Shown here piece by piece: positions 14,178-52,679 of a stretch of DNA of 64,000 nucleotides; the first letter of the stretch is position 1; each line of letters begins with the position of its first letter. The notes beneath the pieces are model-generated. The model was not told where the DNA came from, made no database searches, and saw nothing but the letters and a program-made list of their open reading frames with translations. This DNA is from Lachnospiraceae bacterium 3-1. Its GTDB lineage: Bacteria > Bacillota > Clostridia > Lachnospirales > Lachnospiraceae. The position numbers were made by a program, and so were the translations under genes. The stretch spans positions 62,001 through 126,000 of the forward strand of contig KE159597.1 in assembly GCA_000403255.2 (NCBI GenBank). The letters are read 5' to 3'.

Positions 14178-14289
14178 GTTACGCAGTAGGGGCAGAAAAA
14201 GCCTTGCTACAAGCGGTTTTGCGGGTGTGTATCTGGCGCGGCAAGGGATTTATACCTTATCCCCCGAAACCGCGCTTCTACTGCGTAAC
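14178..14289 (+). repeat. 112-nt palindrome-bounded motif, copy 1
   Basis: Bounded by GTTACGCAGTAG (14,178-14,189) and its exact complement CTACTGCGTAAC (14,278-14,289). Inside are GCAGAAAAAGCCTTG near the start and TTTATACCTT followed by CCCCCGAAA near the end. Copies of 112 and 111 nt lie at 52,568-52,679 and 26,884-26,994. It stands 28 nt before a replication-initiator-like gene. It could be a structured RNA or a replication/transfer DNA signal. Confidence 0.75.
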
Positions 14290-14317
14290 AAATCCACAGC
14301 AAAAGGAGTGATTTACT

Positions 14318-15301
14318 ATGGCAGTTTTCCGGGTGGAACGAAACAAGGGCTATACCGTAATGAGCAACCACCACCTACGCAACAAGGAGCTTTCCCTAAA
14401 GGCAAAGGGGCTGTTGTCGCAAATGCTGTCACTCCCCGAAGATTGGGACTACACCTTGAAAGGCTTATCCCTTATCAACCGGGAGAAGATAGACGCTATC
14501 CGCGAAGCCATTAAGGAGCTTGAACGCGCCGGGTATATCGTCCGGTCAAGGGAGCGCGACGAGAAAGGACGCTTGCGGGGCGCGGACTATGTGATATTCG
14601 AGCAGCCGCAGCCGCCTACGCCGGATTTACCTACATTGGAAAATCCAACATTGGATAATCCAACGCAGGAAAAACCAACATTGGAAAAACCTACGTTGGA
14701 AAATCCAACGCAATTAAATAAAGATATACAAAGAACTGACTTACCAAAAAAAGAAAAAATAATTACTGATGAACAAAGTACCCATTCCATTCCTATCCTT
14801 TCCCCTAACCCCTCTCCTTGCGGGGAAGCGGCTACGCCGCCGGAACGGAAAGGAACGGAAGCGGCAGCACAGAGCGCAGTAGAGATATACCGGGAAATCA
14901 TCAAGGACAATATCGACTACCACATTCTCAAACAGGACATGAAGTTTGACAGTGACAGGCTGGACGAGATTGTAGACCTCATGCTTGAAACCGTATGCAC
15001 CGCCAGAAAGCGGGTACGGATTGCGGGGGACGACTACCCGGCAGAGCTTGTGAAATCTAAGTTTATGAAACTGGACGGCGAACATATCCGCTTTGTGCTT
15101 GACTGTATGCGGGAGAACACAACCAAAATCCGCAACATCAAGCAATATCTGAAAGCAGCCCTTTTCAATGCCCCTTCCACAATCGGCAACTACTACACTT
15201 CCCTTGTCGCCCATGACATGGCAAGCGGCGCACTGTCACCGAAAAAGCCGCAGTACGGCGACCCGGACTATTATTCATGCAACGAGGGCGAAAGCCTGTA
15301 A
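14318..15301 (+). CDS. Replication-initiator/helix-turn-helix protein with DUF6017-like C-terminus
   Basis: 327 residues. The N-terminus (VERNKGYTVMSNHHLRNKEL, then LSLPEDWDYTLKGLSLINRE) is the winged-helix domain typical of RepA-like proteins at the start of Tn1549-type elements. A low-complexity linker holds six pentapeptide units of the type PTLEN (14,630-14,712). The C-terminal domain (YREIIKDNIDYHIL ... LKAALFNAPSTIGNYY) is DUF6017-like. The ribosome site is AAAGGAGTG. It probably binds element DNA for replication or control; no activity is proven. The 112-nt motif lies directly upstream. Confidence 0.8.
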   Translation: MAVFRVERNKGYTVMSNHHLRNKELSLKAKGLLSQMLSLPEDWDYTLKGLSLINREKIDAIREAIKELERAGYIVRSRERDEKGRLRGADYVIFEQPQPPTPDLPTLENPTLDNPTQEKPTLEKPTLENPTQLNKDIQRTDLPKKEKIITDEQSTHSIPILSPNPSPCGEAATPPERKGTEAAAQSAVEIYREIIKDNIDYHILKQDMKFDSDRLDEIVDLMLETVCTARKRVRIAGDDYPAELVKSKFMKLDGEHIRFVLDCMRENTTKIRNIKQYLKAALFNAPSTIGNYYTSLVAHDMASGALSPKKPQYGDPDYYSCNEGESL

Positions 15302-15332
15302 CCACCCACAACCACAAAAGGAGGATTTTATT

Positions 15333-15554
15333 ATGGCACAGAAAATGACAGGAGCATTGGTATTTGACGAGCGCACCGACCGTTACGACATCCGCTTTGA
15401 CTTAAACAGCTACTACGGGGGCTTGCATTGCGGCGAGTGCTTTGACGTATTCGTGCGGGGCAAGTGGAAGCCGACCCGGATTGAGTACGGCGACAACTGG
15501 TATCTTGTGGGTATCAGAGCCGAGGACTTGAACGGGCTGCGGGTGCGTATCTGA
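15333..15554 (+). CDS. DUF5348 family small protein
   Basis: 73 residues: MAQKMTGALVFDERTDRYDI with FDVFVRGKWKPTRIEYGDNW later. The pattern matches the DUF5348 proteins found between the replication protein and PcfB in Tn1549-type elements. AAAGGAGG lies a few bases before the ATG at 15,333. Function unknown. Confidence 0.75.
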   Translation: MAQKMTGALVFDERTDRYDIRFDLNSYYGGLHCGECFDVFVRGKWKPTRIEYGDNWYLVGIRAEDLNGLRVRI

Positions 15555-15595
15555 CCGCCGCCCCATAAAGAAACGCGAAAGGAGGACGCGACAAA

Positions 15596-16072
15596 TTGCA
15601 GGACGAAGTAAACGAAAAGACCATAGCCCTTTACATCAAGACCGGGAAGCTGACCGCGCAGACGCTCCAAAAGGCAATGAAAGCCATACTGTCAAAGGGC
15701 AAAAAGCAGCTTGCAAAACCGCCACAGGGAAAGCAGAGCTTAAAGCAGCTTATGAAGCAGAACGCGGGCGTTTCCAACATTGAGATTACCGAGGGCAATA
15801 TCAAAGCCTTTGAGAGTACGGCGAAAAAGTACGGTATCGACTTTGCGCTGAAAAAGGACGCGACGGAAAGCCCGCCCCGCTATCTGGTTTTCTTCAAGGG
15901 GCGGGACGCGGACGTACTGACCGCAGCCTTTAAGGAATTTTCCGCAAAAAAGCTGACACAGGAGAAAAAGCCCTCAATCCGAAAGCTGCTCTCTACCCTC
16001 AAAGAAGCTGCACAGGGCAGAAACGCGGAACGGGCAAAGGTCAAGAACAAGGACAGGGAGGTATCGCTATGA
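15596..16072 (+). CDS. PcfB family (DUF3801) conjugation protein
   Basis: 158 residues from a TTG start with AAAGGAGG upstream. PcfB-type proteins bind the VirD4 coupling protein and help load the relaxosome. Visible features: GKLTAQTLQKAMKAILSKGK, NIEITEGNIKAFESTAKKYG, and a basic tail containing KPSIRKLLSTLKE. The stop overlaps the virD4 start by 4 nt (ATGA-type coupling), as expected for partners. A very similar PSIR tail occurs on two other proteins of this element. Confidence 0.85.
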   Translation: MQDEVNEKTIALYIKTGKLTAQTLQKAMKAILSKGKKQLAKPPQGKQSLKQLMKQNAGVSNIEITEGNIKAFESTAKKYGIDFALKKDATESPPRYLVFFKGRDADVLTAAFKEFSAKKLTQEKKPSIRKLLSTLKEAAQGRNAERAKVKNKDREVSL

Positions 16073-17036
16073 AGCCGGAAATCAAGATGCTGCTTATCCT
16101 AAATCTCCCGTATCTGCTCTTTGTCTGGCTCTTTGATAAAGTGGGCGCGGCTGTCCGGCTCTCCCCCGGCGCGGACGCAAGCGCAAAGCTGCTACATCTT
16201 GGGGACGGTTTTACCGCCGCCTTTTCCAGTATCGCGCCGAGCTTCCACCCGGCAGACTTAGCTTTAGGCATTGCGGGGGCGGTCATTGTCCGGCTGATTA
16301 TCTACACCAAAGGCAAGAACGCGAAGAAATACCGCCGCGGGACAGAATACGGTTCGGCGCGTTGGGGCGGGGCTGACGACATAAAGCCGTACACCGACCC
16401 GGTATTTGAGAACAATATCCCCTTAACGCAGACGGAACGGCTCACCATGAACAGCCGCCCGAAGCAGCCGAAATACGCAAGAAACAAAAATATCCTTGTA
16501 ATCGGCGGTTCCGGCAGCGGCAAGACCCGGTTCTTTGTGAAACCGTCGCTCATGCAATGTACGTCAAAGGATTTTCCAACGTCGTATATCGTCACTGACC
16601 CGAAAGGAACACTGATTTTGGAAACCGGGAAAATGTTGCAGCGGTACAAATACCGTATCAAAGTGCTAAATACGATTAACTTCAAAAAATCCATGAAATA
16701 CAATCCCTTTGCCTATCTGCGGAGCGAAAAGGACATTTTGAAATTAGTCAATACCATTATCGCCAACACCAAAGGCGACGGGGAAAAATCCGGCGAGGAT
16801 TTCTGGGTGAAAGCGGAAAAGCTCTACTACACCGCACTAATCGGCTATATCTGGTATGAAGCCCCAGAGGACGAGAAGAACTTCACGACGCTGCTTGAAA
16901 TGATAAATGCGTCGGAAGCCCGCGAGGACGACGAGGATTTCCAGAACCCGGTTGACCTCATGTTTGAACGTCTGGAAGAAAAAGACCCGGAACATTTTGC
17001 AGTCAAGCAGTACAAAAAATACAAACTTGCGGCGGG
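16069..17036 (+). pseudogene. virD4: VirD4/TraG coupling protein, exon 1 (split by element D)
   Basis: The coupling ATPase feeds the relaxase-DNA complex into the type IV channel. This part has two N-terminal membrane segments (MLLILNLPYLLFVWLFDKVG and LALGIAGAVIVRLIIY), the Walker A motif GGSGSGKTRFF near residue 145 and the VTDPKGTL motif. It is intact to KQYKKYKLAAG, then enters element D and stops (17,055). Removing element D joins GCGGCGG to CAAGACC and continues ...KTAKSILISCGA in frame at 31,641. As it stands the protein lacks Walker B and should be inactive. Confidence 0.9.
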
Positions 17037-17040
17037 TGAT

Positions 17041-17109
17041 ATATGCTCTAAATGACTTCTTAATCACGAGATTTTCTCATGGTTAGTGAAGAACTCATTT
17101 AGAGCATAT
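17041..17109. repeat. Inverted repeat at the left end of element D (recombinase site/leader)
   Basis: ATATGCTCTAAATGA (17,041-17,055) and TCATTTAGAGCATAT (17,095-17,109) are perfect 15-bp arms. Inner bases also pair partly (CTTCTTAATCAC with GTTAGTGAAG). It lies between the crossover point and the recombinase gene. It is probably the recombinase-binding site and may also let the recombinase control its own promoter. Confidence 0.8.
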
Positions 17110-17131
17110 TTCATGTAAGGAGGCAGACGCT

Positions 17132-18994: not shown

Positions 18995-19030
18995 TTTCAA
19001 CTATTGCATAATAAACAAAACTTTTTCACC

Positions 19031-19097
19031 TTGACAATATGTGTTACAAATGTTATTATTTACTTGCGAATATTTATAACGAATATTCGCAAGTAAA
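19031..19097 (+). promoter_or_regulatory. Autoregulated promoter with large TetR-type operator
   Basis: TTGACA (19,031-19,036), 17 nt, TATTAT (19,054-19,059). A perfect 16-bp-arm palindrome follows: TTTACTTGCGAATATT (19,059-19,074) and AATATTCGCAAGTAAA (19,082-19,097), overlapping the expected transcription start. This fits repression by the TetR protein encoded next. Confidence 0.85.
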
Positions 19098-19123
19098 ATT
19101 CACCAGAAGGGAGAAATAGAATT

Positions 19124-19714
19124 ATGCCGTCAAAGCCAGTCCTTTCGGACGCTGATAAAAAAGCAATCCGCAAAAAGCTGGAAGAACTATGCGAGGAATG
19201 TTGGATAGCGCAAGGGTACAAGAAGACAAGCATTAAGAATCTATGCGATAAGGCTGTTATATCTATCGGTACTTTTTATACGCTCTACCCGACAAAGGAA
19301 GATTTATTCCTTGAAACAATCACAGACATACAAAGGAGGTTGACAGAAAAGATTATCGACATAAACAGGAACAGCCGGACGAAAGAGGGCTTTGCACAGT
19401 CCATGAAAAGGCTTTTCCGGGAATACGACAGCAAGCCGTTCCTCTACAATGTCAATACGCCGGATTTTCAGTCTTTTGTGACAAAGCTGCCGGAAGAAAC
19501 GATTAAGAAAATCAAGTTTGACAGTTTCGATTTTTTCAGACAGGTTATCCATGCCGCAGACCTCAATCTGAAAATGGAGGAAGCACAGGCGTATGGAATT
19601 TTGAGTGCGCTGCTGTCAACAATCAATGCAAAAGAAACGCTTTCCGTCACTTGTGATTATTTCGCTGTTTTTGATTTTATGGTGGATAGCCTTGTGGCAG
19701 ATATTTTTGAGTAA
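19124..19714 (+). CDS. TetR/AcrR-family repressor
   Basis: 196 residues. The N-terminal helix-turn-helix spans about 15-60 (KTSIKNLCDKAVISIGTFYT, typical of TetR), then a helical ligand domain of unknown specificity. It is first in a cluster with an ABC ATPase and permease. The palindrome over its promoter is the natural operator, so it probably represses itself and the transporter until a substrate binds. Ribosome site AAGGGAG. Confidence 0.88.
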   Translation: MPSKPVLSDADKKAIRKKLEELCEECWIAQGYKKTSIKNLCDKAVISIGTFYTLYPTKEDLFLETITDIQRRLTEKIIDINRNSRTKEGFAQSMKRLFREYDSKPFLYNVNTPDFQSFVTKLPEETIKKIKFDSFDFFRQVIHAADLNLKMEEAQAYGILSALLSTINAKETLSVTCDYFAVFDFMVDSLVADIFE

Positions 19715-19725
19715 AGGAGATTTTT

Positions 19726-21366: not shown

Positions 21367-21384
21367 AAGAAAGGGGGCGATAAT

Positions 21385-21609: not shown

Positions 21610-21620
21610 AGGAGGACAAA

Positions 21621-22059: not shown

Positions 22060-22100
22060 CATTGAGCAAATTCACTCATTGTTATCGGTTCATTTTTTTA
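22050..22100 (+). terminator. Terminator of the element-D transporter operon
   Basis: GAGCCGGTAACATTGAG pairs with CTCATTGTTATCGGTTC and is followed by a T7 run. The hairpin begins inside the KTR coding sequence. Confidence 0.75.
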
Positions 22101-23419: not shown

Positions 23420-23424
23420 GGCAA

Positions 23425-24714: not shown

Positions 24715-24759
24715 AGCCAGGGTGTGCAGCAATCTTAAAAATCCAACGGCGCACTTATA

Positions 24760-24845
24760 CACCGTTCCGGTGCGTGCGCCCTGCCGGGGGCGTGGCGTCC
24801 TCTGGACGCAATGGGGAGCTACACTCCCCAAACCCCTTGTGAGCT
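24760..24845 (+). other. Probable oriT of element D (MOB_Q type) and adjacent hairpin
   Basis: CACCG-TTC-CGGTG (24,760-24,772) is followed directly by CGTGCGCCCTG (24,773-24,783). A small hairpin leading into TGCGCCCT is the classical nick region of RSF1010/pSC101-class relaxases, and a MobA/MobL relaxase gene follows. A second hairpin, TGGGGAGCTACACTCCCCA (24,812-24,830), and ACCCCTTGTGAGCT (24,832-24,845) have a close relative at 35,454-35,508 in element C. The nick position is inferred. Confidence 0.65.
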
Positions 24846-24925
24846 CCGCCGGAAAGGACACCCGCCCTGCGTCTGCCCTTTCCAGCGAAGCCAATCTATC
24901 CCCACCCGAAAGGAGGCGAACCGCC

Positions 24926-26368
24926 ATAGCCATATTCCATATGCCCGTCCAGATTATCAAGCGCAGCAAGGCCAAGTCTGCCGTGGGCGCTGCCGCTTAC
25001 CGGAGCGGAACAAAAATGACCAACGAATGGGACGGGCTTACCCATGATTACACCCGGAAACGTGGCGTAGTCCACTCTGAAATCATATTGCCGCCCCATG
25101 CCCCGCCGGAATTTCAAGACCGCAGAACTCTCTGGAACAGTGTGGAGATGGTTGAAAAGACCCATGACGCACAGCTTGCCCGTGAGATAGAGATTTCCCT
25201 GCCGGTAGAACTGAACCGGGAGGAACAGCTGCGGCTTGCCCGCTCCTTCATCAGCGATACCTTTGTCGCCGCCGGTATGTGTGCGGATTTCTCTATCCAT
25301 GACAAGAAAGACGGCAATCCCCACTTCCATGTCATGCTCACTATCCGACCGCTAAAGGAGGATGGGCAGTGGGGAGCGAAATGCCGGAAGGTCTACGAAC
25401 TGGACGAAAACGGCCAGAGAATCCCCAACGGCAAAGGCGGCTGGAAGAGCCATCGGGAGGACACCACCGACTGGAACGACAAGGGAAATGTAGAGAAGTG
25501 GAGGACTGCCTGGGCTGCCTACGCCAACAGAGCGTTGGAGGCTGCTGGCAGGCCGGAACGGATTGACCACCGCTCCTACGAGCGTCAGGGCATTGACAAG
25601 ATACCTTCCATCCATCTGGGAGTTGCCGCCAGCCAGATGGAACGGAAAGGCATTGCAACGGAGAAGGGGAACATCAACCGCCAGATTGCCGCCGACAATA
25701 AACTGCTGAAGGAAATCAAGGCACGGATTGCCCGGCTCTACAAATGGACAAAGGAGCAGGTGGGGAAACCGGAAGGAAAAGACAGTATCATGGCACAGCT
25801 TTACGAGGCCCAACTGTCAACAGGGAACCCTGACTCCCGGTATGGGAAGATAAAGAACCTGAAAGAAAGCGCCGCCCTGTTTAATTTCCTGAACAGCAAC
25901 AACATCACTTCCATAGAGCAGCTTTATGAAAAGGTGGCCGCCATGAACAAAGATTACTATTCCCTGCGTGGGAAGATTGTCAACGCCGAGCGGCGTATCA
26001 AAGTGCTGAACGAACATCTTTCCATGTGGGAGAAATACGAGAGGAACAAAGGAACCCGCCGCCAGTTCGACAAGATGAAGCCGGGGAGGAAAAAGGAGCA
26101 GTTTGAGCAGAAGCACAGTGCGGAACTGGCGTTATATGAGGCCGCCGTCCGGTATCTGGAAAAGCTGAAAGCCAACGGCGAAGAAGTCACCCCGAAGAAA
26201 TGGCAGGCCGAGGCTGACCGCCTGAAAGCGGAGAAATCGGTACAGTACCAGAAAATGAAATCCATGCGGGAGGACATCAAGGCGGTGGAGAACCTGAAAA
26301 AGACAGCGGAGCAGTTGGCTAGGACGGAAAATGAACCGGCCAGAAAGAAGGAGGAACAAGAATTATGA
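24926..26368 (+). CDS. mobL: MobA/MobL-family relaxase of element D
   Basis: Relaxase that nicks oriT and pilots element D through a borrowed channel. From the start: IAIFHMPVQIIKRSKAKSAV, then AAYRSGTKMTNEWDG and the metal-binding GNPHFHVMLTIRP, followed by a long coiled-coil C-terminus. Family members begin MAIFHM. Here that methionine position is ATA (24,926-24,928), 9 nt after AAAGGAGG. The frame is open back to ATG 24,722, but that stretch overlaps the oriT-like sequence, so it is unlikely to be coding. Initiation at ATA or at the ATG of FHMP (24,941) is uncertain. Confidence 0.88.
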   Translation: MAIFHMPVQIIKRSKAKSAVGAAAYRSGTKMTNEWDGLTHDYTRKRGVVHSEIILPPHAPPEFQDRRTLWNSVEMVEKTHDAQLAREIEISLPVELNREEQLRLARSFISDTFVAAGMCADFSIHDKKDGNPHFHVMLTIRPLKEDGQWGAKCRKVYELDENGQRIPNGKGGWKSHREDTTDWNDKGNVEKWRTAWAAYANRALEAAGRPERIDHRSYERQGIDKIPSIHLGVAASQMERKGIATEKGNINRQIAADNKLLKEIKARIARLYKWTKEQVGKPEGKDSIMAQLYEAQLSTGNPDSRYGKIKNLKESAALFNFLNSNNITSIEQLYEKVAAMNKDYYSLRGKIVNAERRIKVLNEHLSMWEKYERNKGTRRQFDKMKPGRKKEQFEQKHSAELALYEAAVRYLEKLKANGEEVTPKKWQAEADRLKAEKSVQYQKMKSMREDIKAVENLKKTAEQLARTENEPARKKEEQEL

Positions 26369-26535
26369 CACAGCAGTTTATCACCATGACAATCACTATC
26401 ACCGTAAAGATACCCGTGCCGCCCACGCCGCCAGCGCCTACGGGGGCGAAAGCGCCGGAGCCGGTTTTCCTTTTCAGGGAGGGGCAGCCGCCTTTATGCC
26501 GATGCAAGGTGAGATATGGGAAACAGGCGGCATGA
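26365..26535 (+). CDS. Short proline-rich protein coupled to the relaxase
   Basis: 56 codons starting in the ATGA overlap with the relaxase stop. It has a Thr/Ile-rich start (MTQQFITMTITITVKIPVPP), then Pro/Ala repeats and a CRC near the end. The coupling and codon use favour a real gene, but no function is recognised. Confidence 0.5.
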   Translation: MTQQFITMTITITVKIPVPPTPPAPTGAKAPEPVFLFREGQPPLCRCKVRYGKQAA

Positions 26536-26914
26536 GCGAATCCCGGCCATGGACTATCGGCAGTACCGCAGGGCGAGGCGGCTGGTGCGTGAGTGCTGCA
26601 ACTATGACAATGGCCAGTGTATGGTGCTTGACGAGGGGGACGGGTGCGTCTGTGTCCAGAGCATTTCCCACTCCCTGCTCTGCCGCTGGTTCCGTGTGGC
26701 GGTGCTGCCTTTAGACCACCAGCTGGAAACGGCTCTTTACCACCGGCTGGAAAGCAGGCGGTGCAGCGAGTGCGGCGCTCTTTTCCTTCCCGGCTCCAAC
26801 CGGGCGAAATACTGTAAGGAGTGTGCCGCCAGGGTGCGCCGGAGGAAGGAGGCAGAACGCCAAAGGAAAAGATACCATGATTCTACGCATTTAGGAGTGG
26901 AAAAAGCCTTGTAA
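26516..26914 (+). CDS. Cysteine-rich VLP domain protein (element D)
   Basis: 132 residues. Cys pattern CCNYDNGQC ... CVCVQ ... LLCRWFRVAVLPLD (the VLP signature), then a CxxC..CxxC zinc knuckle (RRCSECGALFLP, YCKECAARVRRR) and a basic tail. A homologue with the same layout is at 52,214-52,579. It is probably a small zinc-binding nucleic-acid protein of the mobilisation or replication module. The 111-nt motif overlaps its 3' end. Confidence 0.85.
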   Translation: MGNRRHERIPAMDYRQYRRARRLVRECCNYDNGQCMVLDEGDGCVCVQSISHSLLCRWFRVAVLPLDHQLETALYHRLESRRCSECGALFLPGSNRAKYCKECAARVRRRKEAERQRKRYHDSTHLGVEKAL

Positions 26915-26994
26915 ATCAAGCGCTTTCGGAGCGTGTCGGAGGGGAGGCAATACTTTTTATCACTGACACCCCAAAAGCCCCATTAAAATGCGTA
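26884..26994 (+). repeat. Palindrome-bounded motif, copy 3 (element D)
   Basis: Bounded by TACGCATTT (26,884-26,892) and AAATGCGTA (26,986-26,994). Inside, GGAAAAAGCCTTG and GGCAATACTTTTTATC followed by CACCCCAAAA align with the two element-C copies. The closing stem differs in sequence but still pairs, and the length is 111 nt against 112. It lies between the Cys-rich VLP gene and the replication-initiator gene. Confidence 0.7.
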
Positions 26995-27036: not shown

Positions 27037-27789
27037 ATGACAGAGAACCGACGATTTTATTACCTCAAGCTGAAAGAGAATTTTTATAACAGCGAAACCA
27101 TGGTCATTCTGGAGAGTATGCAGGACGGCCTTCTGTACTCCAATCTCCTTCTCAAGATGTATTTGATGTCCCTGAAAAGCAGCGGCGTACTCCTGCTGAA
27201 TGACTGCCTGCCCCATACGGTGCAGACCATAGCCACCTTTACCCGGCATCAGGTAGGCACGGTGGAACGGGCTTTGAAGATATTCCAGGAGTTTGGGCTT
27301 GTGGAGATACTGACGGACGGGGCCTATTACATGAGCGACATCCAGCTGCTGATCGGCCAGTCGTCCAGCGAGGGGGAGAGGAAGAAAAAGGAGCGCATGA
27401 GGCTGAAACGCCAGAACCTGCTCCCTGCCGGGGAAGCGGACATTTGTCCGTCCAATGGCCGGGTGGACAAATGTCCGCCTATATTAGAGTATAGAGATAA
27501 AGAGATTAGAGATAAGAGTATAGAGAATAGAAAGGGGGATAAGACACACGCCTATGGGAGATACCGGAATGTATTTCTATCTTCTGCAGAACTGGCAGAA
27601 CTCCAAGCGGAACTGCCCTCTCTCTGGGAACAGTACATTGAGCGGCTGTCCGAGTATATGGAATCCAGTGGAAAGGGATATAAAAACCATGCAGCCACAA
27701 TCCGGCGCTGGGCGAACGCCGACAAAAAGAAAGAGGAACCGCCTGCCCGGAACCGGGATTACAGCGTGGAGGAAGGAGAAACCATATGA
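27037..27789 (+). CDS. Phage replisome organiser-type replication initiator
   Basis: 250 residues. The N-terminal domain (YYLKLKENFYNSETMVILES, then LLYSNLLLKMYLMSLKSSGV) is the Rep_Org domain that melts or marks an origin. The middle is low-complexity, and the C-terminus is DnaD-like (ELQAELPSLWEQYIERLSEY). It overlaps the DnaC-like loader by 4 nt. Together they suggest that element D replicates after excision. Ribosome site AAAGGAG. Confidence 0.82.
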   Translation: MTENRRFYYLKLKENFYNSETMVILESMQDGLLYSNLLLKMYLMSLKSSGVLLLNDCLPHTVQTIATFTRHQVGTVERALKIFQEFGLVEILTDGAYYMSDIQLLIGQSSSEGERKKKERMRLKRQNLLPAGEADICPSNGRVDKCPPILEYRDKEIRDKSIENRKGDKTHAYGRYRNVFLSSAELAELQAELPSLWEQYIERLSEYMESSGKGYKNHAATIRRWANADKKKEEPPARNRDYSVEEGETI

Positions 27790-28643
27790 TAGAGATTACC
27801 GCAGAAGTCCGGGCAGCCATTGACCGGGCAGCCGGGGATATGGAACTTGCCGGGGACGAATACATAGAACCGGCTGACGGGCTTATCCACTGTAAGAAAT
27901 GCCATGGCAGCCGCCAGACTGTCGTGCCTAGGTTCGGAGGCTCCGGCTATTTCATGCCCCGCTGCCTCTGTCCCTGCCAGCAGAAGGCGCAGGAGGAACG
28001 GAAAGCCATGGAGGAACAGAAGGAACACATGGAGCGTGTCAAACGCCGGAAGGCGCAGGGGCTTCAGGACAGATACCTTTATGATTACACTTTTGCCAAT
28101 GATAACGGCCAGAATCCCGTCATGGAGAAAGCCCACGCCTATGTGGAGCATTGGAAGGAGGCATACCGGGACAATGCCGGCCTTCTGCTTTTTGGTGACG
28201 TGGGAACCGGGAAATCCTTTTTTGCCGGCTGTATCGCCAATGCCCTGCTTGACCGTGACGTGCCGGTTCTGATGACAAATTTCCCGTCTATCCTGAACCG
28301 GCTGACCGGCGTGTTTGCCGAGGACAGGGCGGCCTTTATCGCCAGCCTGGACGATTACAGCCTGCTTGTCATTGATGATTTAGGAGTGGAGCGCAGTACC
28401 GAGTATGCCATGGAGCAAATGTTCACCGTCATTGACAGCCGATATCGGAGTAAGAAGCCGTTGATTGTCACAACAAACCTGAAACTGGAAGAAATCAAGA
28501 ACCCGCCAGACCTTGCCCACGCAAGGATTTATGACCGCATACTGGAACGGTGTGCTCCGATTCTTTTTTCCGGTAAAAATTTCCGGGAGGAAGGAGCCAG
28601 GGCGACCAAAGCGGCGGCGAAAGAGATTGTGAGTAAGGGATAA
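27786..28643 (+). CDS. DnaC/IstB-like helicase-loader ATPase
   Basis: 285 residues. Cys knuckle near the start (HCKKCHGSRQ ... CLCPCQQK), Walker A GDVGTGKSFFA, Walker B LLVIDDLGVERS and sensor TTNLKLEEI. It belongs to the DnaC-type AAA+ loaders that deliver the replicative helicase. It is coupled by ATGA overlap to the initiator upstream. Confidence 0.88.
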   Translation: MIEITAEVRAAIDRAAGDMELAGDEYIEPADGLIHCKKCHGSRQTVVPRFGGSGYFMPRCLCPCQQKAQEERKAMEEQKEHMERVKRRKAQGLQDRYLYDYTFANDNGQNPVMEKAHAYVEHWKEAYRDNAGLLLFGDVGTGKSFFAGCIANALLDRDVPVLMTNFPSILNRLTGVFAEDRAAFIASLDDYSLLVIDDLGVERSTEYAMEQMFTVIDSRYRSKKPLIVTTNLKLEEIKNPPDLAHARIYDRILERCAPILFSGKNFREEGARATKAAAKEIVSKG

Positions 28644-31696: not shown

Positions 31697-34487
31697 GTGC
31701 AGCGACACGTTGTCGCATATAAACTCTGCGTGGGATTTTCCTGCAAAGAGGTAAAAGTGACGGAAAGGCTATAGCCTTTCTAACTGATATTCCGAGAAGT
31801 GGAATGACGGGGTAACGCCCTGAAACGCTTCCCTTGATACTGCGTTGGAAGAAACGGGACGTATTTCCCGCGACTGACACAGCACGCTGAAGTCGGCTGT
31901 CTGCACCCGCGACTGTCCCCTTTGGGGGATAAAGCAAAGCCGAGCCAGAGGTGGCCGGGGGTGTTAGGCCGGAGGTCTATAAAGTACCTATGTCCAGAAT
32001 GCGGCTGACTACCGCTGACAAAAGCCCGAATGTACAGGTCTATAACGGGATATGGCAGAAATGCCATAGCCGTGGAAACGGCGTATGTGGGGTAAAGTAA
32101 GATTTGTCGATATGAAATTCCCTATGGTGTTACAGGCACCATCAGGCATACAGGCCTAAAGGGCAGGGTTAAGGGTATTATGCAAAGATAGGAATATCGG
32201 AACGTGGAAAGCCCCGGATGTGGAGTGGATACGCATGATGAAGCAATGGGCGGGAAAATCGTGCCGCCTTTTATGGGAGGTGCGGTATAACCGTTCTTAA
32301 TCCGGGAGGAAAGAGCAGCCATGCTACCTGTGAAGCCGTGAACAAAGTAAGCGGTGGAGGGACGGGCTGTAGTCAGGAACAGAAACAAAACCATATTCAA
32401 TAAACACGCATAGGTTCGAGTAGGACTAAGAAAGGCGAAAATCCAAACGAAAGTGGGGATAAGTAACCGACTATGGCAACAGGAAAGGCAAAGAAGAAAG
32501 ATAAGTTAAGGCACGCCGAGTATTATGACTTCCAGGCAATTCAAGATAAGCTGTATGCCGACAGCAATAAAGGCAAAGTTTTCAAACATCTGGTTGGAAT
32601 CATTGCATTACCCGAAAACATACGGCTGGCATACCGCAACATCAAGAAGAACCACGGGAGTACGACGCCCGGCACAGATGGAAAAACAATCACAGAATTA
32701 TCAGCACTCTCTGATGAACAGCTTATATGCGCCGTACAGCGCAAATTAAACTGGTATGTCCCACAAAGCGTCCGGCGGGTAGAAATTCCGAAAGGAAATG
32801 ACCCAATGAAGAAGCGCCCGCTCGGAATACCGACGATTATGGACAGGCTGATACAACAGTGCGTATTGCAGGTCATGGAGCCGATATGTGAGGCGAAATT
32901 CCACGACCACAGTTATGGATTCCGCCCTAACCGGAACCAACAGCACGCAATCGCCCAGGTTCACAAAAATATGCAGAGAAGCAATCTCCACTATGTCGTA
33001 GACATAGATGTTAAGGGGTTCTTTGACAACGTGAACCACGGAAAACTGCTGAAACAGCTCTGGACAATGGGAATCCAAGACAAGAAGCTGCTTAGTATTA
33101 TATCAGCTATGCTAAAAGCGGAGGTGGCCGGGATAGGATTCCCGGAGGTGGGTACGCCGCAGGGAGGTATTATCTCTCCCCTGCTATCCAATGTAGTTCT
33201 AAACGAATTGGATTGGTGGCTTGCCAGCCAATGGGAAGAAATACCAACGGAGTTCCCTTACAAGGAATCGGTCAATTACAACGGAAGCGTGAGCAAGAGC
33301 CATAAATTTGCCGCACTGCGGAGGACAAGGCTGAAAGAAGTCACCTGCGTCCGATACGCTGATGATTTTAAGATATTCACGAACAGCTATCAAAATGCGG
33401 TGAAGTTATTCCACGCAACCAAAAGCTGGCTCCATGAAAGGCTTTCTCTTGAAATCAGTCCTGAAAAATCAAAGGTGATTAACCTGAAAGAGCAGTATTC
33501 AGAGTTTCTTGGTTTCAAGTTAAAGGTTATCCCCCGTGGGAAACGGAGCAACGGACGCGCCAAATATGTAGTAGAGAGCCATATCAGAGAGAAATCTATT
33601 GCGAAAATAAAACCAAACTTAAAACGGCTGATTTACGACATTGAGTTCCCGTCACAAGGCAAACGTACTGAATATCAGGCGATTTGCCGCTACAACGTTT
33701 ATGTAATGGGAATCCATGACTACTATCAATTAGCCACAAAGGTCTGCGATGACCTTACGCCATTCGCCTTATCTGTCCACAAGAGCCTGCGGGCAAGACT
33801 GAAAGAACGGGTTAAAACTGCAAAACAGGTCAGAAAAAGGAAGATTCCGTGTGAAGTTCCGAAAGTTATCAGGGAACGGTATGGGAAAAGCAAACAGCTC
33901 CGATATGTAGCCGGACACGCAGTTGTCCCGATTGGCTACATACGGCACAAGCCCCCAAAGTCCATGAACCGCAAAATCAATTCCTATACGCCCGAGGGCA
34001 GAGCCGAAATCCATAAGAATCTGGACAGAATCGACATGACGGTTCTTCATTACTTAATGAGGAACCCGGTTCTGTACCGTACTATCGAATACAACGATAA
34101 CAGGCTTTCACTGTATTCGGCCCAAATGGGAAAATGCGCCGTATCTGGCAAAGTGCTTTCTATTGGCGATATTCATTGCCATCACAAAGTGCCACGGTAT
34201 TTAGGCGGCAAGGACAATTATCAAAATCTGGTGTTGGTATGTGAAGATGTACACCATCTGATTCATGCTACAAACCCTGATATTATCAGAAAGTATATGG
34301 AAATCCTAGGCCTTGACCAAAAGCAGAAAGAAAAACTCAATAAGTTAAGAAGCCTTGTCCACGTTGAGAGTTATTGAGATGAAATAAATTCTGTTCCTGA
34401 TGGCAAGCCGGGTGAGCTGAAAGGTTCATGCCCGGTTTAGGGCGGGGGAAAATCCGGAGATAACATCAAAGGATTACCTATCGCTAT
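31697..34487 (+). mobile_element. Group II intron in virD4
   Basis: It begins GTGCAGCG and ends GCTAT (an AY end). Removing it gives CCATTCGACA+TTAAGGAG, read as APFD-I-KELRELM, the expected VirD4 sequence. Domain V is a 34-nt hairpin starting AAGCCGGGTGAGCT with a GAAA tetraloop (about 34,402-34,435). Domain VI (34,437-34,487) is a long stem with an unpaired A near its 3' end. An RT-HNH protein is encoded in domain IV. Ends are predicted from exon reading, not from RNA data. Confidence 0.9.
32473..34377 (+). CDS. ltrA: Group II intron reverse transcriptase/maturase with HNH endonuclease
   Basis: 634 residues. It has RT domains with PLGIPTIMDRLIQQCVLQVM, DIDVKGFFDNVNHGKLL, GTPQGGIISPLLSN and the catalytic VRYADDFKIF near residue 295, a maturase domain (about 380-500) and a C-terminal HNH nuclease (CAVSGKV ... 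CHHKVPRYLGGKDNYQNLVL). It helps the intron RNA fold and splice and copies it into new DNA targets. All key residues are present, so the intron looks active. Confidence 0.95.
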   Translation: MATGKAKKKDKLRHAEYYDFQAIQDKLYADSNKGKVFKHLVGIIALPENIRLAYRNIKKNHGSTTPGTDGKTITELSALSDEQLICAVQRKLNWYVPQSVRRVEIPKGNDPMKKRPLGIPTIMDRLIQQCVLQVMEPICEAKFHDHSYGFRPNRNQQHAIAQVHKNMQRSNLHYVVDIDVKGFFDNVNHGKLLKQLWTMGIQDKKLLSIISAMLKAEVAGIGFPEVGTPQGGIISPLLSNVVLNELDWWLASQWEEIPTEFPYKESVNYNGSVSKSHKFAALRRTRLKEVTCVRYADDFKIFTNSYQNAVKLFHATKSWLHERLSLEISPEKSKVINLKEQYSEFLGFKLKVIPRGKRSNGRAKYVVESHIREKSIAKIKPNLKRLIYDIEFPSQGKRTEYQAICRYNVYVMGIHDYYQLATKVCDDLTPFALSVHKSLRARLKERVKTAKQVRKRKIPCEVPKVIRERYGKSKQLRYVAGHAVVPIGYIRHKPPKSMNRKINSYTPEGRAEIHKNLDRIDMTVLHYLMRNPVLYRTIEYNDNRLSLYSAQMGKCAVSGKVLSIGDIHCHHKVPRYLGGKDNYQNLVLVCEDVHHLIHATNPDIIRKYMEILGLDQKQKEKLNKLRSLVHVESY

Positions 34488-44137: not shown

Positions 44138-44141
44138 GTGT

Positions 44142-45278: not shown

Positions 45279-45352
45279 ATAATCACCTCTTCATAAAGTT
45301 TAAAACTATTATACAATGGCAATTCAATTAAAACAATAAGGAGGAAATCAAA

Positions 45353-47437: not shown

Positions 47438-47447
47438 AAACTTGAAT

Positions 47448-47546
47448 AGCAAGCATAGGAAGCGGGTACCCACTTCCGTAAATCCCTGTCCTGCCGCTGA
47501 CGCGCCGGACGGGGATTTTGCTTGTTGGGAAGTTTCCCAAACCCTC
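47448..47546 (+). repeat. 99-nt structured element, copy A (upstream of the anti-restriction gene)
   Basis: Starts AGCAAGCATAGG followed by the near-palindrome GGAAGCGGGTACCCACTTCC, and ends CTTGTTGGGAAGTTTCCCAA plus ACCCTC. Between lie 40 nt with the hairpin AATCCCTGTCC/GGACGGGGATT. The inverted partner of exactly the same length is at 54,737-54,835. Confidence 0.8.
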
Positions 47547-47676
47547 TTTTTGCGGAGGGCTTCACCCTCTGAAAATTTTCATAAATCTTTGGCAGAAATG
47601 CGTGTGTACCGTAGTAGGCTATGCAGCCAAAAAATGCAGCTTATGACGCTGACGCAGAGAAAGGAGGTTTTCATTT

Positions 47677-50600
47677 ATGGCAAGTTTACGGGACACCGTA
47701 AAGGACTATCAAGACGAGCTTAGGGACGGTATCGCGTGGGTAGCGTTCTGGAAACAGGGGCGTTCATGGAACGCGGAATATTTTCATCTTGATATGGACG
47801 ACACGCTCTACCCGGAGGACAGGAGCCGGTTAGAGGAAATCAAAAGCACCGACCCCGCCGCCGTTATCCTAAACGGCTATTACTGCGGGCATTTAGGCGG
47901 GGACATGAGCCTTGACGAGCTGACCGCCGGAGTGCGCTACCACTACGAAAACAGCATGAACGACATTGACGGTTTTATCGGGGCGCATGACGACAGGCTT
48001 CCCCCGGAGGTTATCGAGGAAGCGAGAGCCGCAGCCCATGAAGCGGGGCTTCCCTTTTCCGAAAAGCCCTACCGGGACGGGGAGGATTTTGACCCCTATG
48101 TATTTGACGGTAGACAGAGCTACGAAGATTACGAGCTTATGCACCGCATGATGAACGAAGAAAGGAGCAGACAAATGGCAGAACCGATTTTAAGCGGCTA
48201 TCTTTCCAATCTTGGGAAGTACACCGAGGGCAGACCCGCGGGCGAATGGGTGACGTTCCCCACGACTGCCGAACATCTGAAAGAAGTCTTTGACCGTATC
48301 GGGATTGACTTCAAGCACTACGAGGAATGGCATTTCACAGAATTTCAATCCCCTATCCCCGGCTTGACGGAACATTTAAGCGAGTATTCCCACCCCGACG
48401 AGCTGAACTATTTAGGGAAGCTCTTGGAAATGCAGTTTGACGACGACCGGGAGAAATTCATTGCAGCCATTGAATACGGCGACCATGCCGACAGCTTACA
48501 GGACATCATCAACCTTGCACAAAACCTTGACTGCTACTGGCTTTATCCGTCCGTCCACAGTGAAGAAGAATACGGGCATTATCTGGTTGATGAACTGGAA
48601 GAACCGGAGCTATCCGACGAAGTGAAACGGTATTTCATGTATGAGGAATACGGGCGGGACGCTTCCATTAACGACGACGGTATGTTTACCGAAAAGGGCT
48701 ATATCTACAACAACCGCAACACCTTTACAGAATGGTACGACGGGCGCGACGTGCCACAGGAATACCGGGTAACGCCGCAGCCCCCGCAGCGGTCACGCCC
48801 CGACCCGGAAAAGGTAGAAATGGACGCAGCCGCGCCGGGACAGAGAACCGCACAGACCGCAGAGCAGCCACAGGAGCCGCGCCCGGTTATCCCTATCGTG
48901 CTGACGAGCGAGAAGCCCGCCGAGAAATTAAAAGAGATTACCGACCGTCTGGAACAGGGTATTGCGGAACTCTTTGACAGCGAGCGTTACAAGGAATATC
49001 TGAAAGTCATGTCAAAATTCCATAATTACAGCTTCCGAAACACCGTCCTTATCGCCATGCAGAAGCCGGACGCTTCCCTTGTGGCGGGCTTTTCCGCTTG
49101 GAAGAACAACTTTGAGCGAAACGTGATGAAAGGGCAAAAGGGAATTAAAATCATTGCCCCGTCGCCCTATAAAATCAAACAGGAAATGCAGAAAATCGAC
49201 CCGCACACGCAGAAGCCCATAATCGGCAAGGACGGGAAGCCTGTCACCGAGGAAAAGGAAGTCACCATACCCGCCTACAAGGTGGTATCCGTCTTTGACG
49301 TTTCCCAGACCGAGGGAAAGGAGCTGCCGGACATTGCCGTTGACGAGCTGACAGGCGACGTTGACCGCTACAAGGATTTTTTCGCAGCCCTTGAAAAGAC
49401 TTCCCCCGTTCCTATCGCCTTTGAGAATATCGAGGGCGGCTCTCATGGCTACTACCACTTGGAGGACAAGCGCATTGCTATCAACGAGGGCATGAGCGAA
49501 TTACAGACCTTAAAGACCGCTATTCACGAAATCGCCCATGCGAAGCTGCACGACATTGACCTCAACGCGCCAAAGGACGAGCAGCAGCCCCACATTGACC
49601 GCCGCACCCGCGAAGTCGAAGCGGAAAGCGTCGCCTATACCGTCTGCCAACATTACGGGCTTGACACGTCGGACTACTCTTTCGGCTATGTCGCCGGGTG
49701 GAGCAGCGGGCGGGAGCTGTCCGAGCTGAAAAGCTCCCTTGAAACGATACGCAGCGCAGCCGCCGAGATTATCAATTCAATAGACGAAAATCTTGCGGAG
49801 CTGCAAAAGGCACAGGACAAGGAGCAGACCGCCGGACAGGAGCAGCCCACCAGAGAGGAAAAGGCAGCCCCGAAAGAACAGCCGCAGCCGGAAGCCCCGT
49901 CAAAGGCAGATACAGCCGGAAAAGAGAAGCCGGAGCCGGAAGCAGCCGCACCGGGAAAATCCGGCGCACAGGAAAAAGCGGGCACAGCCCCGAAAGAAGC
50001 CTTTACCCCGGAAACGATTTACAGAGTACGCCGGAACCCTTACAGCGACAGCCGGGATAACAGCTACCTCTTGCAAGCCTATGTGACACAGGAGAACGGG
50101 CGGGCGAAAATGGGCGACGTGCTTTATACGGGAACGCCGGAGAAATGCCGCGAGCTTATGGGGCAGCTCAAAAGCGGCGAGCTGACCGAGGGCGACATAA
50201 AGCAGCTTTACGCAAAGGCACAGGAAACGGCGCAGACCGCCGGACAGGACAAAGACACCTTTTCCATTTACCAGATAAAGGGCGGGGACGAAACAAGGGA
50301 TTTCCGCTTTGAGCCTTACGACCGCCTGCAGGCGGCGGGAAATGTGGTTGACAGGGCGAACTATGAGCTTGTCTATTCCGCGCCCCTTGCGCCGGAAACT
50401 TCCCTTGAAGATATTTACACCCGTTTCAATATCGACCACCCCAAAGATTTTAAGGGACACAGCCTTTCCGTTTCGGACGTGGTAGTGCTTCATCAGGACG
50501 GACAGGACGCGGCGCATTTCGTTGACAGTATAGGTTTCCGGGAAGTGCCGGAGTTTTTACAGGAGCAAAAGCAGCTTACCCCGGACGACTTGGAAACGGG

Positions 50601-51051
50601 CGAAACTGTCAAAACACCGAGAGGGACTTTCCATGTAACCGCCATGAGCCGGGAGCAGATAGAAGCCGCCGGATATGGCTTTCACCACCAGTCGGACGAC
50701 GGAAAGTATCTGATTATGGGGAATGGGACGCGGGCGTTTGCTGTTGCCGCAGAACAGGCGCAGCGGGACAATCCCTTGAAAACCGCCGAGCAGACCATAG
50801 AGCAGAACGGAAACATGATTGACGGTATCATCAACAACACCCCCACCGTTGACGAACTGGAAGCAAAGGTAAAGGCGGGCGAGCAGATTTCCCTTGTTGA
50901 CCTGGCTAATGCAGTCAAAGCCGACAAGGAGCGCGGCAAGGGAACGAAGCCGGAAAAGAAGCCCTCTATCCGGGCGCAGCTTAGAGCCGACAAGGAAAAG
51001 GCGCAGAAGAAAAACGCAAAGCAGAAGTCACAGGACTTGGAAAGGAGCTGA
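47677..51051 (+). CDS. Giant anti-restriction protein: ArdA + ArdC-like/zincin + YodL domains
   Basis: 1124 residues, AAAGGAGG before ATG 47,677. An N-terminal domain (about 1-150) of DUF3849-like type comes first. An ArdA-type domain spans about 165-370 (AEPILSGYLSNLGKYTEGRP, then the acidic FHLTEF-like WHFTEFQSPIPG and YYLGKLL-like stretch). An ArdC-type ssDNA-binding domain is at about 420-550 (FHNYSFRNTVLIAMQKPDAS). A zincin peptidase has the HEIAHAKLH motif near 620. A low-complexity linker, a YodL-type domain (about 850-960) and the tail KPSIRAQLRADKEKAQKK complete it. ArdA mimics DNA to block type I restriction; the zincin part may act in the recipient. Confidence 0.85.
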   Translation: MASLRDTVKDYQDELRDGIAWVAFWKQGRSWNAEYFHLDMDDTLYPEDRSRLEEIKSTDPAAVILNGYYCGHLGGDMSLDELTAGVRYHYENSMNDIDGFIGAHDDRLPPEVIEEARAAAHEAGLPFSEKPYRDGEDFDPYVFDGRQSYEDYELMHRMMNEERSRQMAEPILSGYLSNLGKYTEGRPAGEWVTFPTTAEHLKEVFDRIGIDFKHYEEWHFTEFQSPIPGLTEHLSEYSHPDELNYLGKLLEMQFDDDREKFIAAIEYGDHADSLQDIINLAQNLDCYWLYPSVHSEEEYGHYLVDELEEPELSDEVKRYFMYEEYGRDASINDDGMFTEKGYIYNNRNTFTEWYDGRDVPQEYRVTPQPPQRSRPDPEKVEMDAAAPGQRTAQTAEQPQEPRPVIPIVLTSEKPAEKLKEITDRLEQGIAELFDSERYKEYLKVMSKFHNYSFRNTVLIAMQKPDASLVAGFSAWKNNFERNVMKGQKGIKIIAPSPYKIKQEMQKIDPHTQKPIIGKDGKPVTEEKEVTIPAYKVVSVFDVSQTEGKELPDIAVDELTGDVDRYKDFFAALEKTSPVPIAFENIEGGSHGYYHLEDKRIAINEGMSELQTLKTAIHEIAHAKLHDIDLNAPKDEQQPHIDRRTREVEAESVAYTVCQHYGLDTSDYSFGYVAGWSSGRELSELKSSLETIRSAAAEIINSIDENLAELQKAQDKEQTAGQEQPTREEKAAPKEQPQPEAPSKADTAGKEKPEPEAAAPGKSGAQEKAGTAPKEAFTPETIYRVRRNPYSDSRDNSYLLQAYVTQENGRAKMGDVLYTGTPEKCRELMGQLKSGELTEGDIKQLYAKAQETAQTAGQDKDTFSIYQIKGGDETRDFRFEPYDRLQAAGNVVDRANYELVYSAPLAPETSLEDIYTRFNIDHPKDFKGHSLSVSDVVVLHQDGQDAAHFVDSIGFREVPEFLQEQKQLTPDDLETGETVKTPRGTFHVTAMSREQIEAAGYGFHHQSDDGKYLIMGNGTRAFAVAAEQAQRDNPLKTAEQTIEQNGNMIDGIINNTPTVDELEAKVKAGEQISLVDLANAVKADKERGKGTKPEKKPSIRAQLRADKEKAQKKNAKQKSQDLERS

Positions 51052-51054
51052 CCC

Positions 51055-52008
51055 ATGCCGGAACAGAGCAAATTTGAAAACGTGGATTTGTTCGCTTCCC
51101 TTGAAGCGATTATGAAGCAGAACACAGGCTTTTACCAGAGCGACTTAGACATTGACAAAGAGATTATCGCAAAGGCGGCGGCAAGCCCCCACAGGGAGGA
51201 CAAGACCCTTTTGTGGTTCTGCCGCCCGTCCGGGACGCACTGTTTCCGGGAGCGCGACGTTTTCCTCAAAGACACCGCGCCCCACAACACATGGCGTTTC
51301 TACATGGAGCAGACAAGCGACCGCGTCCTTGCCTATGCAATCGAGCTGACGGGAAAGGAGCGCGGGAAAATCAAGGGCAATCTGTACGAACTGGACTACG
51401 CTAAACATTATGAGCGTGTCAAGGAAAAGGAGCTGCCCGCCGATACGGTGAAGCTGATTTATGAGCGAGGGGAAAGGGAGATACCCGCCGGACGGTTCTT
51501 CAACGGCAACCCAGACCCGCAGCTTGGGAAGTTTGAACGCTTTGAAGCCCTACCCAACGACCCGGACGCGCTGCAATCGCTCTTACAGGAAGAACGGCGC
51601 AGCCGGGAGCAGCTTTCACCGGGGGACTTCAAGGCGCATATCGCCGCTTTGCGGGACGGGCTGATTGAAACGGAAGCGCGGCGCATTGTGCGGGAAATGA
51701 AGCGGCATTACGAGCCGAACAGCCCGAACAAGACCCATTTCATGGCAGAGCTTTCCCCGGCGTTCATGCGGCTTGCAGCCACAAAGGACACTGACCGCCT
51801 TTTCTCCATGCTGCCCTACAAGACACTTTCCTTTTCCAAAATCGAGGGCAGACATGGGACGTATGCGCTGATTGACAAGGGGGAGAACCGGGACAGGGAG
51901 ATAAGGAGGCCCCGCCCCTCTATCCGGGCGCAGCTTAAAGCAGACAAGGCAAAGACCGCCCCGAAAAAGGCGGCGGCGAAAACAAAAAATCACGATATGG
52001 AGGTATGA
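51055..52008 (+). CDS. Conserved ICE protein with PSIRAQL tail, function unknown
   Basis: 317 residues, starting 3 nt after the anti-restriction gene. Visible segments: FENVDLFASLEAIMKQNTGF at the start, then LLWFCRPSGTHCFRERDVFL and LTGKERGKIKGNLYELDYAK in the first half, and a tail RPSIRAQLKADKAKTAPKK nearly identical to that of the upstream protein. No catalytic motif is recognised. Co-expression and the shared tail suggest a common partner. Confidence 0.7.
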   Translation: MPEQSKFENVDLFASLEAIMKQNTGFYQSDLDIDKEIIAKAAASPHREDKTLLWFCRPSGTHCFRERDVFLKDTAPHNTWRFYMEQTSDRVLAYAIELTGKERGKIKGNLYELDYAKHYERVKEKELPADTVKLIYERGEREIPAGRFFNGNPDPQLGKFERFEALPNDPDALQSLLQEERRSREQLSPGDFKAHIAALRDGLIETEARRIVREMKRHYEPNSPNKTHFMAELSPAFMRLAATKDTDRLFSMLPYKTLSFSKIEGRHGTYALIDKGENRDREIRRPRPSIRAQLKADKAKTAPKKAAAKTKNHDMEV

Positions 52009-52010
52009 GC

Positions 52011-52217
52011 ATGATTAGACTGACTGTTGAAGAAACAAACCTTTTGAGCATTTACAACGAGGGCGGCAAGCGGGCTTTGATTGAGAATGTCAACGCCGCA
52101 CTGCCCTACATGGACGCGGATATGCGGGAGCTTGCAAAGCGCACCCTTTCCAAAGTGGACGCTTTGACCGAAGCGGAATTTGCGGAGCTTCCCATTTACG
52201 CCGCTGATGAAGTATGA
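52011..52217 (+). CDS. Transposon-transfer assisting protein (TTRAP)
   Basis: 68 residues: MIRLTVEETNLLSIYNEGGK, then LIENVNAALPYMDADMRELA. This is the TTRAP pattern of clostridial conjugative elements. ATG 52,011 is chosen over 52,005 because of the 7-nt distance from GGAGG. It overlaps the VLP gene by 4 nt. Confidence 0.85.
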   Translation: MIRLTVEETNLLSIYNEGGKRALIENVNAALPYMDADMRELAKRTLSKVDALTEAEFAELPIYAADEV

Positions 52218-52579
52218 ACGGGGTTAAGCGGCTGACGCCGCCCCAGAGCCGGAAAGTCAACGCCCTTGTGCGCCGGACGTGCTGCAACTATGATAACGGG
52301 AACTGTATCTTACTGGACGACGGGGACGAGTGCGTTTGTCCGCAGCTCATTTCCTATTCGCTTCTCTGCAAGTGGTTCCGGGTTGCGGTGCTTCCCGCCG
52401 ACAGGCTGCTCTATGCGGAGCTTTACCAGACAGGGGACAAGAAGAAGTGTACCGAGTGCGGCGCGTTCTTTGCGTCAACCTCTAACAGTGTCAAATACTG
52501 CCCCGTCTGCCGGAAACGTATCACCCGCAGACAAGCCGCCGAGCGCATGAGGAAAAGACGCGCCCCTGTTACGCAGTAG
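52214..52579 (+). CDS. Cysteine-rich VLP domain protein (element C)
   Basis: 121 residues. It has CCNYDNGNCILLDDGDECVC and LLCKWFRVAVLPADRLLYAE (VLP signature), then two CxxC pairs (KKCTECGAFF, YCPVCRKRITRR) and a basic end. It is homologous to 26,516-26,914. Its last codons form the left arm of the 112-nt motif, the same arrangement as in element D. Confidence 0.87.
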   Translation: MNGVKRLTPPQSRKVNALVRRTCCNYDNGNCILLDDGDECVCPQLISYSLLCKWFRVAVLPADRLLYAELYQTGDKKKCTECGAFFASTSNSVKYCPVCRKRITRRQAAERMRKRRAPVTQ

Positions 52580-52679
52580 GCGCAGAAAATCCCTTGATTT
52601 ACAGGGCTTTCCGGGCGTGAAAACCGGATAGGCGATACTTTATACCTTTACCCCCGAAAATGGCGTTCTACTGCGTAAC
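52568..52679 (+). repeat. 112-nt palindrome-bounded motif, copy 2
   Basis: GTTACGCAGTAG (52,568-52,579) and CTACTGCGTAAC (52,668-52,679) bound it, as in copy 1. Inside, GCAGAAAATCCCTTG and GGCGATACTTTATACC followed by CCCCCGAAAA are shared while the rest diverges. Confidence 0.75.

Follow-up and report, generated by a model that had tools for sequence, protein, structure and literature searches.

A motif of about 112 nucleotides, here called M, is present in three copies within a 64,000-nucleotide stretch of the genome of Lachnospiraceae bacterium 3-1 (contig KE159597.1, positions 62,001 to 126,000; this whole stretch is referred to below as the window), and our analysis showed that M is a widespread, unannotated part of mobile elements, mainly of Bacillota. 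The pairing of its two ends was conserved, yet it did not look like RNA pairing. We tentatively favour, with a little less than even confidence, the reading that M is an undescribed DNA site and that a factor encoded on the element, possibly the protein of the Cys_rich_VLP family (hereafter VLP) whose gene commonly ends at M, recognises its ends.

The copies were located at 14178..14289 (+), 26884..26994 (+) and 52568..52679 (+), with lengths of 112, 111 and 112 nucleotides, exactly where the original prediction, made from the letters of the window, had placed them. The closing stems had also been read correctly, GTTACGCAGTAG/CTACTGCGTAAC in copies 1 and 3 and TACGCATTT/AAATGCGTA in copy 2. 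Of the internal blocks proposed to be common to the copies, GAAAA and a TTTAT-like block lined up across all three, while the proposed CCCC(C/A)AAA held only loosely, as CCCC..AAA, with copies 1 and 3 reading CCCCCGAAA. A full-length alignment of copies 1 and 3 gave 73% identity (E 1.8e-9), and the + strands of the three copies folded better than shuffled sequences, with z-scores of -4.50, -2.74 and -3.63; the minus strands folded nearly as well. This alignment, the folding scores and the terminal covariation described below indicated a likeness among the three copies beyond chance.

A search of clostridial elements with a covariance model had been proposed along with the motif, and it revealed a large family extending far beyond three copies. 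One model (R1) was built from eight copies of M in the bacterium's own genome and another (R2) from 40 diverse members. R1 found M in 15 of 61 genomes, a set of 60 relatives plus the own genome (75 matches at E up to 0.01), and, with the threshold set to E 0.001, in 41 of 393 genomes from the class, and R2 found it in 19 of 398 genomes from the phylum; the three sets overlap and each includes the own genome, in which R2 matched 16 places at E up to 0.1. Among 183 distinct copies with full flanks, the outermost paired ends lay 111-118 nucleotides apart in 163, and the outermost paired trinucleotides were TGT..ACA in 109. The claim that the motif was undescribed was supported by the searches made. 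Rfam 15 gave no match over the three copies when the whole window was searched at the gathering score, and nothing overlapping M at a permissive threshold applied to the copy 3 region only; copy 3 had no match in a phage collection, and a literature search by end sequences and by the VLP family, mostly at the level of listings, returned no description of M.

Some rows were dropped before these and the following counts were made (L and G numbers are our handles for loci and genomes). The matches of L021, L022, L061, L069, L188 and L190, the match L145:2054 and the duplicate matches of L119 and L120 on the minus strand were removed from the weighted mismatch, 183-copy and 64-end-type counts; L170:8154 was removed from the latter two only, both of which exclude copies without full flanks, and the 64-end-type count also required at least 5 of 9 end pairs per copy. 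The 40-member alignment was a 43-row set minus L005, L058:3040 and L148.

Pairing kept while the sequence changes had been proposed from the three copies, and the wider family bore this out for the terminal helix. Across the 40 diverse members, the terminal helix and a short second helix together showed 87 two-sided changes against 30.1 in shuffles, and the covariation score was 0.369, compared with 0.140 for shuffled and at most 0.125 for slid controls, a score reached by none of 500 shuffles. Most of this signal came from the terminal helix, the only one to covary clearly. Inner hairpins scored only modestly above shuffles (5.72 and 5.70, compared with 4.36 and 4.51 for the shuffles), and an inner helix GGGG/CCCC (columns 14-17 with 91-94), good by eye, failed against shuffles and was rejected. 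The outer stem was not recovered by RNAalifold from the first MAFFT alignment.

In the outer 7 bp of the terminal helix, weighted cells comprised 269.6 Watson-Crick, 4.0 G.T, 7.2 A.C and 22.6 other combinations, G.T thereby making up 4.0 of 33.8 weighted non-Watson-Crick cells. When 64 end types were each counted once, there were 370 Watson-Crick, 13 G.T, 20 A.C and 45 other combinations; G.T accounted for 13 of 78 mismatches, which may share ancestry, where random mismatches would be expected to give 17% G.T, 17% A.C and 67% other. If the helix were under selection as RNA, G.U would be expected to make up most of the non-Watson-Crick pairs. The acceptor stems of 22 distinct tRNAs from the same genome (30 loci) provided a control, with 141 Watson-Crick, 13 G.T and 0 other pairs, subject to a small bias as the orientation was picked by a score accepting G.T. 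Because G.T was no commoner than chance among the mismatches, the ends of M looked like DNA and not like an RNA helix.

M had been proposed to be tied to VLP genes, and this association was strong. VLP loci were gathered by protein only, the best 80 coming from genome contigs and another 16 from viral contigs. Of these 96 loci, 91 had a full M (E up to 0.1 with R1 or 0.001 with R2) at the 3' end of VLP or beside it; the remaining five had a partial match (L188, L190) or no M match (L151, L191, L194). In the window, copies 2 and 3 overlapped the ends of VLP genes by 31 and 12 nucleotides, as had been noticed originally. The tie was not exclusive, as M was also found after relaxase, sigma-HTH (helix-turn-helix) and cargo genes, and in genomes without a VLP match. 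A compact example of the association came from a Campylobacter jejuni plasmid record (L292, Campylobacterota), in which VLP, M, RepA, MobV and recombinase followed one another (72.1 bits). A second small cysteine-rich gene, identified by eye, ended at or near M or the DUF6017 start in L298-L300, L303 and L316; it resembles VLP in this placement and is possibly a second partner.

Other contexts of M recurred as well. M lay directly before DUF6017 in 8 of 30 loci read, and its gap to the DUF6017 start was 27-28 nucleotides in three end families. Four of these eight leaders were found by an inverted-repeat script, three by model and L316 by eye; the script missed four visible copies (L298-L300 and L316), and the absence of M from the other 22 leaders was judged by script and eye. 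L314 and L316, compared by eye, had a common gene, hairpin and ribosome-binding site, and M was present in L316 only. The region upstream of DUF6017 in the vanB element was also considered as an empty site and was rejected as not clean, another small gene being present there; L314 and L316 make the cleaner pair. The proposal that two copies in the window precede initiator genes was upheld for adjacency, while an initiator role for DUF6017 is suggested by its context only. M was further found after a sigma-HTH pair and, in some elements, before apparent TnpW and recombinase genes (labels partly by eye), after relaxase in L280, after another terminal gene in L283 and L081, and between cargo genes in some loci. 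The pMG2200 vanB element, which we take to be of the Tn1549 type, carried one M at the end of VLP (59.6 bits) and another behind an HTH gene (28.3 bits), in the order M-HTH-M. Its backbone genes are related to those of the window's element, and it differs from that element in that VLP stands behind the relaxase gene, not behind the transfer operon; its record lists no M feature.

In the contexts read, M was co-directional with VLP, rep, DUF6017 and HTH genes. It ran against the relaxase gene in the window's element and along it in mobilizable elements and the pMG2200 vanB element. Because the orientation to relaxase flips, M would not be fixed to the transferred strand, if relaxase genes enter last in transfer.

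Copies of M within one element tended to have similar ends. In six elements with two copies of M, identity over 20 end positions was 0.89 within and 0.53 between elements, with 2 of 720 permutations as high and a separate run of the comparison agreeing for the ends, and a rare GTTACGA end was common to both copies in G057. Such elements differed in the slots occupied, as an HTH gene separates the two vanB copies, and those of G122 lie in a DUF6017 leader and at a relaxase end. Direct tandem pairs followed an order of their own: in seven of the eight that were noticed while reading (spacers of 3-62 bases), a copy with class I ends (GTTACGC, GTCACGC or GTTAGCT) came first and one with class II ends (GTGGA..) second, L326 being related to L327 and L329, L330 and L088 to one another, so that about four of the seven were independent. 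Both copies were class II in the remaining pair (L328), and in L056 two copies were mutually inverted.

Longer arrays enclosed cargo genes. Four direct copies of M stood between VLP and relaxase in L136, in the order VLP-M-gene-M-gene-M-gene-M-relaxase, and the single genes that fill the intervals belong to the PBP, OmdA and Lactamase_B families. Two direct copies enclosed one or two open reading frames (ORFs) in L126, L138, L142 and L143, among them an HTH_3 gene in L142, and FAD-binding (L138), GNAT (L143) and AbiH (L114) genes lay between the last M and relaxase. In L127, two copies were 326 bases apart with no listed ORF between them. The repeat unit of the arrays comprised about 45 nucleotides of the VLP tail, M and a terminator, the VLP tail being missing from the second copy of L142 and shortened in the second copy of L136, and the cargo borders lay outside M. 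A 717-bp stretch of L143 cargo was present at 96.5% identity in a second own-genome element (L237). Mosaic copies of M occurred in own-genome mobilizable elements; crossover at one fixed base in M was considered and rejected, as the mosaic breakpoints, read by eye, differ. Cargo units of promoter, gene and terminator with shared flanks were also seen between VLP and relaxase in L126, L135, L136, L138, L139 and L143.

A DNA site recognised by a protein is favoured because the ends of M covary without a preference for G.T, match within elements and fall into ordered classes; the orientation of M, following VLP, rep and HTH genes rather than relaxase, its gap of 27-28 nucleotides to the DUF6017 start and its place at the VLP 3' end were also counted in its favour. 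M would be a discrete DNA site spanning about 112 bp, or 114 if the outermost T/A pair is included, and would have a conserved interior and paired ends, most often 5'-TGT..ACA-3'. It would form part of plasmids and of mobilizable and Tn1549-like conjugative elements. The ends would most likely be bound as DNA by an element-encoded protein, with an end specificity that would have diverged between elements. From its sequence and gene position, VLP is the leading candidate for this binder, a small, cysteine-rich and probably zinc-binding protein with conserved cysteines and a predicted C-terminal helix rich in Arg/Lys, whose gene usually ends in or next to M. No description of the function of the family was found in the literature searched, and the VLP profile reached a best E of 0.034 against the sequences of solved structures. 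Given its slots, namely transfer or replication operon leaders, the 3' ends of VLP or relaxase operons and the position behind the sigma-HTH pair, M could, when bound, serve as an operator-like or synaptic node tying the modules of the element to one factor. The family with its contexts, the covariation of the ends without a G.U preference, their likeness within elements and the class order in close tandem pairs are what the analysis showed; recognition by a protein, the identity of that protein as VLP and a regulatory role are what we infer.

Several observations weigh against this reading. The predicted VLP structure was of medium confidence (predicted local distance difference test, pLDDT, 73), and a fold search of the PDB gave no match at E up to 0.001. 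Many VLP loci are near duplicates, 19 of the 96 giving the same M score of 36.0 bits. M was present in G261 and G601, in which no VLP match was found, some assemblies being fragmented; G073 had 13 M matches and two partial VLP matches, and G122 had no M match directly behind its VLP at 124.5 kb. The members had been collected with models holding the terminal helix, and the pair counts therefore lean towards it. The interior of M was also more alike within elements than between them (0.73 against 0.66; 1 of 720 permutations), and the likeness of ends could stem from conversion between copies. In G019, one copy ended in GTTACGC and the other in GTGACGC/GCGTCAC; this restoration of pairing without a match to the sister copy favours hairpin pairing over recognition. 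Wider pairs (L031, L051 and L053, about 313 bases apart) and arrays (L136 and others) had class I ends in both copies, which indicated that two classes are not always needed.

Hairpin pairing would be expected if M were a single-strand origin or a primosome (priming) hairpin, folding in single-stranded element DNA at the transfer or rolling-circle stage, and we regard this as unlikely, though it deserves the most weight after the protein-recognised site. It would fit DNA-type pairing that is kept while the sequence is free, the position of M beside mob and rep genes, and the pairing restored inside one G019 copy. In the part consulted of a study of a single-strand origin (sso; PMC4595007), an sso of altered sequence and retained structure still worked, an sso worked in one orientation, and structure-based searches were considered necessary for the ssos of other integrative and conjugative elements. 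M resembles the ssos of ICEBs1 and rolling-circle plasmids, as far as that part of the source describes them, in conserving DNA structure above sequence and in adjoining mobilization genes, and differs from them in that an sso is orientation-specific, and the orientation of M appears untied from relaxase. The order of end classes in tandem pairs is not expected of such an origin. The orientation of M is kept relative to VLP and flips against relaxase between elements, which counts against an sso on the assumption that relaxase enters last. Integron attC sites offer another model, being of similar size and imperfectly palindromic, with short paired end boxes, a free sequence and a place at gene 3' ends or between cargo genes. 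M matches them in size, imperfect palindrome, paired end boxes and placement, and an attC-like exchange site, at which cargo cassettes and element modules would be swapped by recombination, would accommodate the direct copies separating genes in L136, L126, L138, L142 and L143, the cargo families between copies or between the last M and relaxase, the M-HTH-M arrangement of the vanB element, the mosaic copies and the L143 cargo shared with a second element. We consider it rather unlikely, because the array repeat unit is wider than M, the cargo limits lie outside M, the mosaic breakpoints vary and the interior of M is conserved, unlike that of attC. The core sites RYYYAAC/GTTRRRY, judged by eye against the consensus as we know it, were not seen in the 64 end types, and no integrase was noticed beside M, although no search was aimed at integrases. 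A bolder form of this idea, which we hold to be slightly less likely, is that conjugative transposons, vanB elements of the Tn1549 type among them, assemble their modules and cargo cassettes through an unrecognised integron-like system with M as its exchange site, in which end classes I and II, in that order, would mark polarity and VLP would be the DNA-binding partner.

The original prediction had implied a structured RNA, and M as such an RNA in 5' leaders or 3' untranslated regions, acting through stability, antitermination or VLP-bound autoregulation, now appears improbable. M is co-directional with the adjacent operon gene, often with a terminator-like hairpin following, and its three + strands fold better than shuffles, as such an RNA would; however, the covarying helix had no G.U preference, compared with 13 of 13 departures in the tRNA stems, the inner helices were without covariation support or only modestly above shuffles, the minus strands folded nearly as well, and Rfam gave no match. 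Single-strand promoters of the Frpo/ssi kind are likewise folded elements in conjugative DNA, as described in the part consulted of PMC11541004, and M differs from them in that no -35/-10 pair was recognised in it by eye, although no sequence search was made against Frpo; no convincing sigma-70 promoter was seen inside M, again by eye. A miniature inverted-repeat transposable element is very improbable. The TGT..ACA ends of 109 of 183 copies, the presence or absence of M in DUF6017 leaders and the tandem copies are in keeping with one, but the interior is conserved across end families, the copies read sit in few slots of mobile elements or apparent remnants, and target-site duplications were not seen by eye in the flanks printed, which were given no systematic test.

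M, for which the searches made gave no description, recurs in gut Bacillota, on conjugative as well as mobilizable elements, and in an enterococcal vanB (vancomycin-resistance) element, and it gives the Cys_rich_VLP family a concrete candidate DNA partner. M could also serve as a sequence handle on how such elements switch on transfer and replication or assemble their cargo. The order of end classes and the likeness of ends within elements are precise and falsifiable regularities.

Within the window, copies 1 and 3 belong to one large conjugative element, presumably of the Tn1549 type. Copy 1 lies where the transfer operon begins, with serine recombinase genes on one side and, 28 nucleotides downstream, the DUF6017/HTH_36 gene (14318..15301, +) on the other, and a terminator-like hairpin identified by eye lies just upstream of it (14118..14166, +). 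Three adjacent large serine recombinase genes are found beside copy 1 (9380-14082, -), and the first of them (12559..14082, -) also adjoins M and DUF6017 in several related loci. Copy 3 lies at the 3' end of the VLP gene at 52214..52579 (+; PF14194, E 7.9e-29), the stop codon of which is inside the left end of the copy, and is followed by a terminator-like hairpin (52700..52753) that was scored on, and is readable from, both strands. An HTH_16 gene (52757..53008, -) occupies the slot separating copy 3 from the relaxase gene of the large element (53074..54420, -), which is convergent with VLP and copy 3, an order also annotated in the relative L006. The same gene order was found in a Monoglobus plasmid record for the VLP side and in a Pusillibacter record for the DUF6017 side. 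For the large element, the origin of transfer could not be localised.

Copy 2 belongs to a nested mobilizable element and is flanked by the VLP gene at 26516..26914 (+; PF14194, E 9.3e-24), which extends 31 nucleotides into it, and a Phage_rep_org_N gene (27037..27789, +), 42 nucleotides downstream. An IstB/AAA ATPase gene (27786..28643, +) comes next, and the MobA_MobL relaxase gene of the nested element is at 24722..26368 (+). A TAAGTGCGC motif before MobA_MobL (24749..24757, -) is a candidate nick region by what we take to be the nick consensus.

A pemK RNA (RF02913, 62.3 bits) was found at 61470-61567 (+), with the sigma-HTH pair of the window's element on one side and the recombinase gene on the other; some related elements carry M in this interval. 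Apart from sharing this interval, pemK RNA differs from M in sequence and model, no copy of M was reported as a pemK match, and a relationship between the two was not supported. Elsewhere in the window, group II intron matches flank both sides of a 634-aa ORF (31779-34487, +), and a T-box leader is present at 2337-2626 (+).

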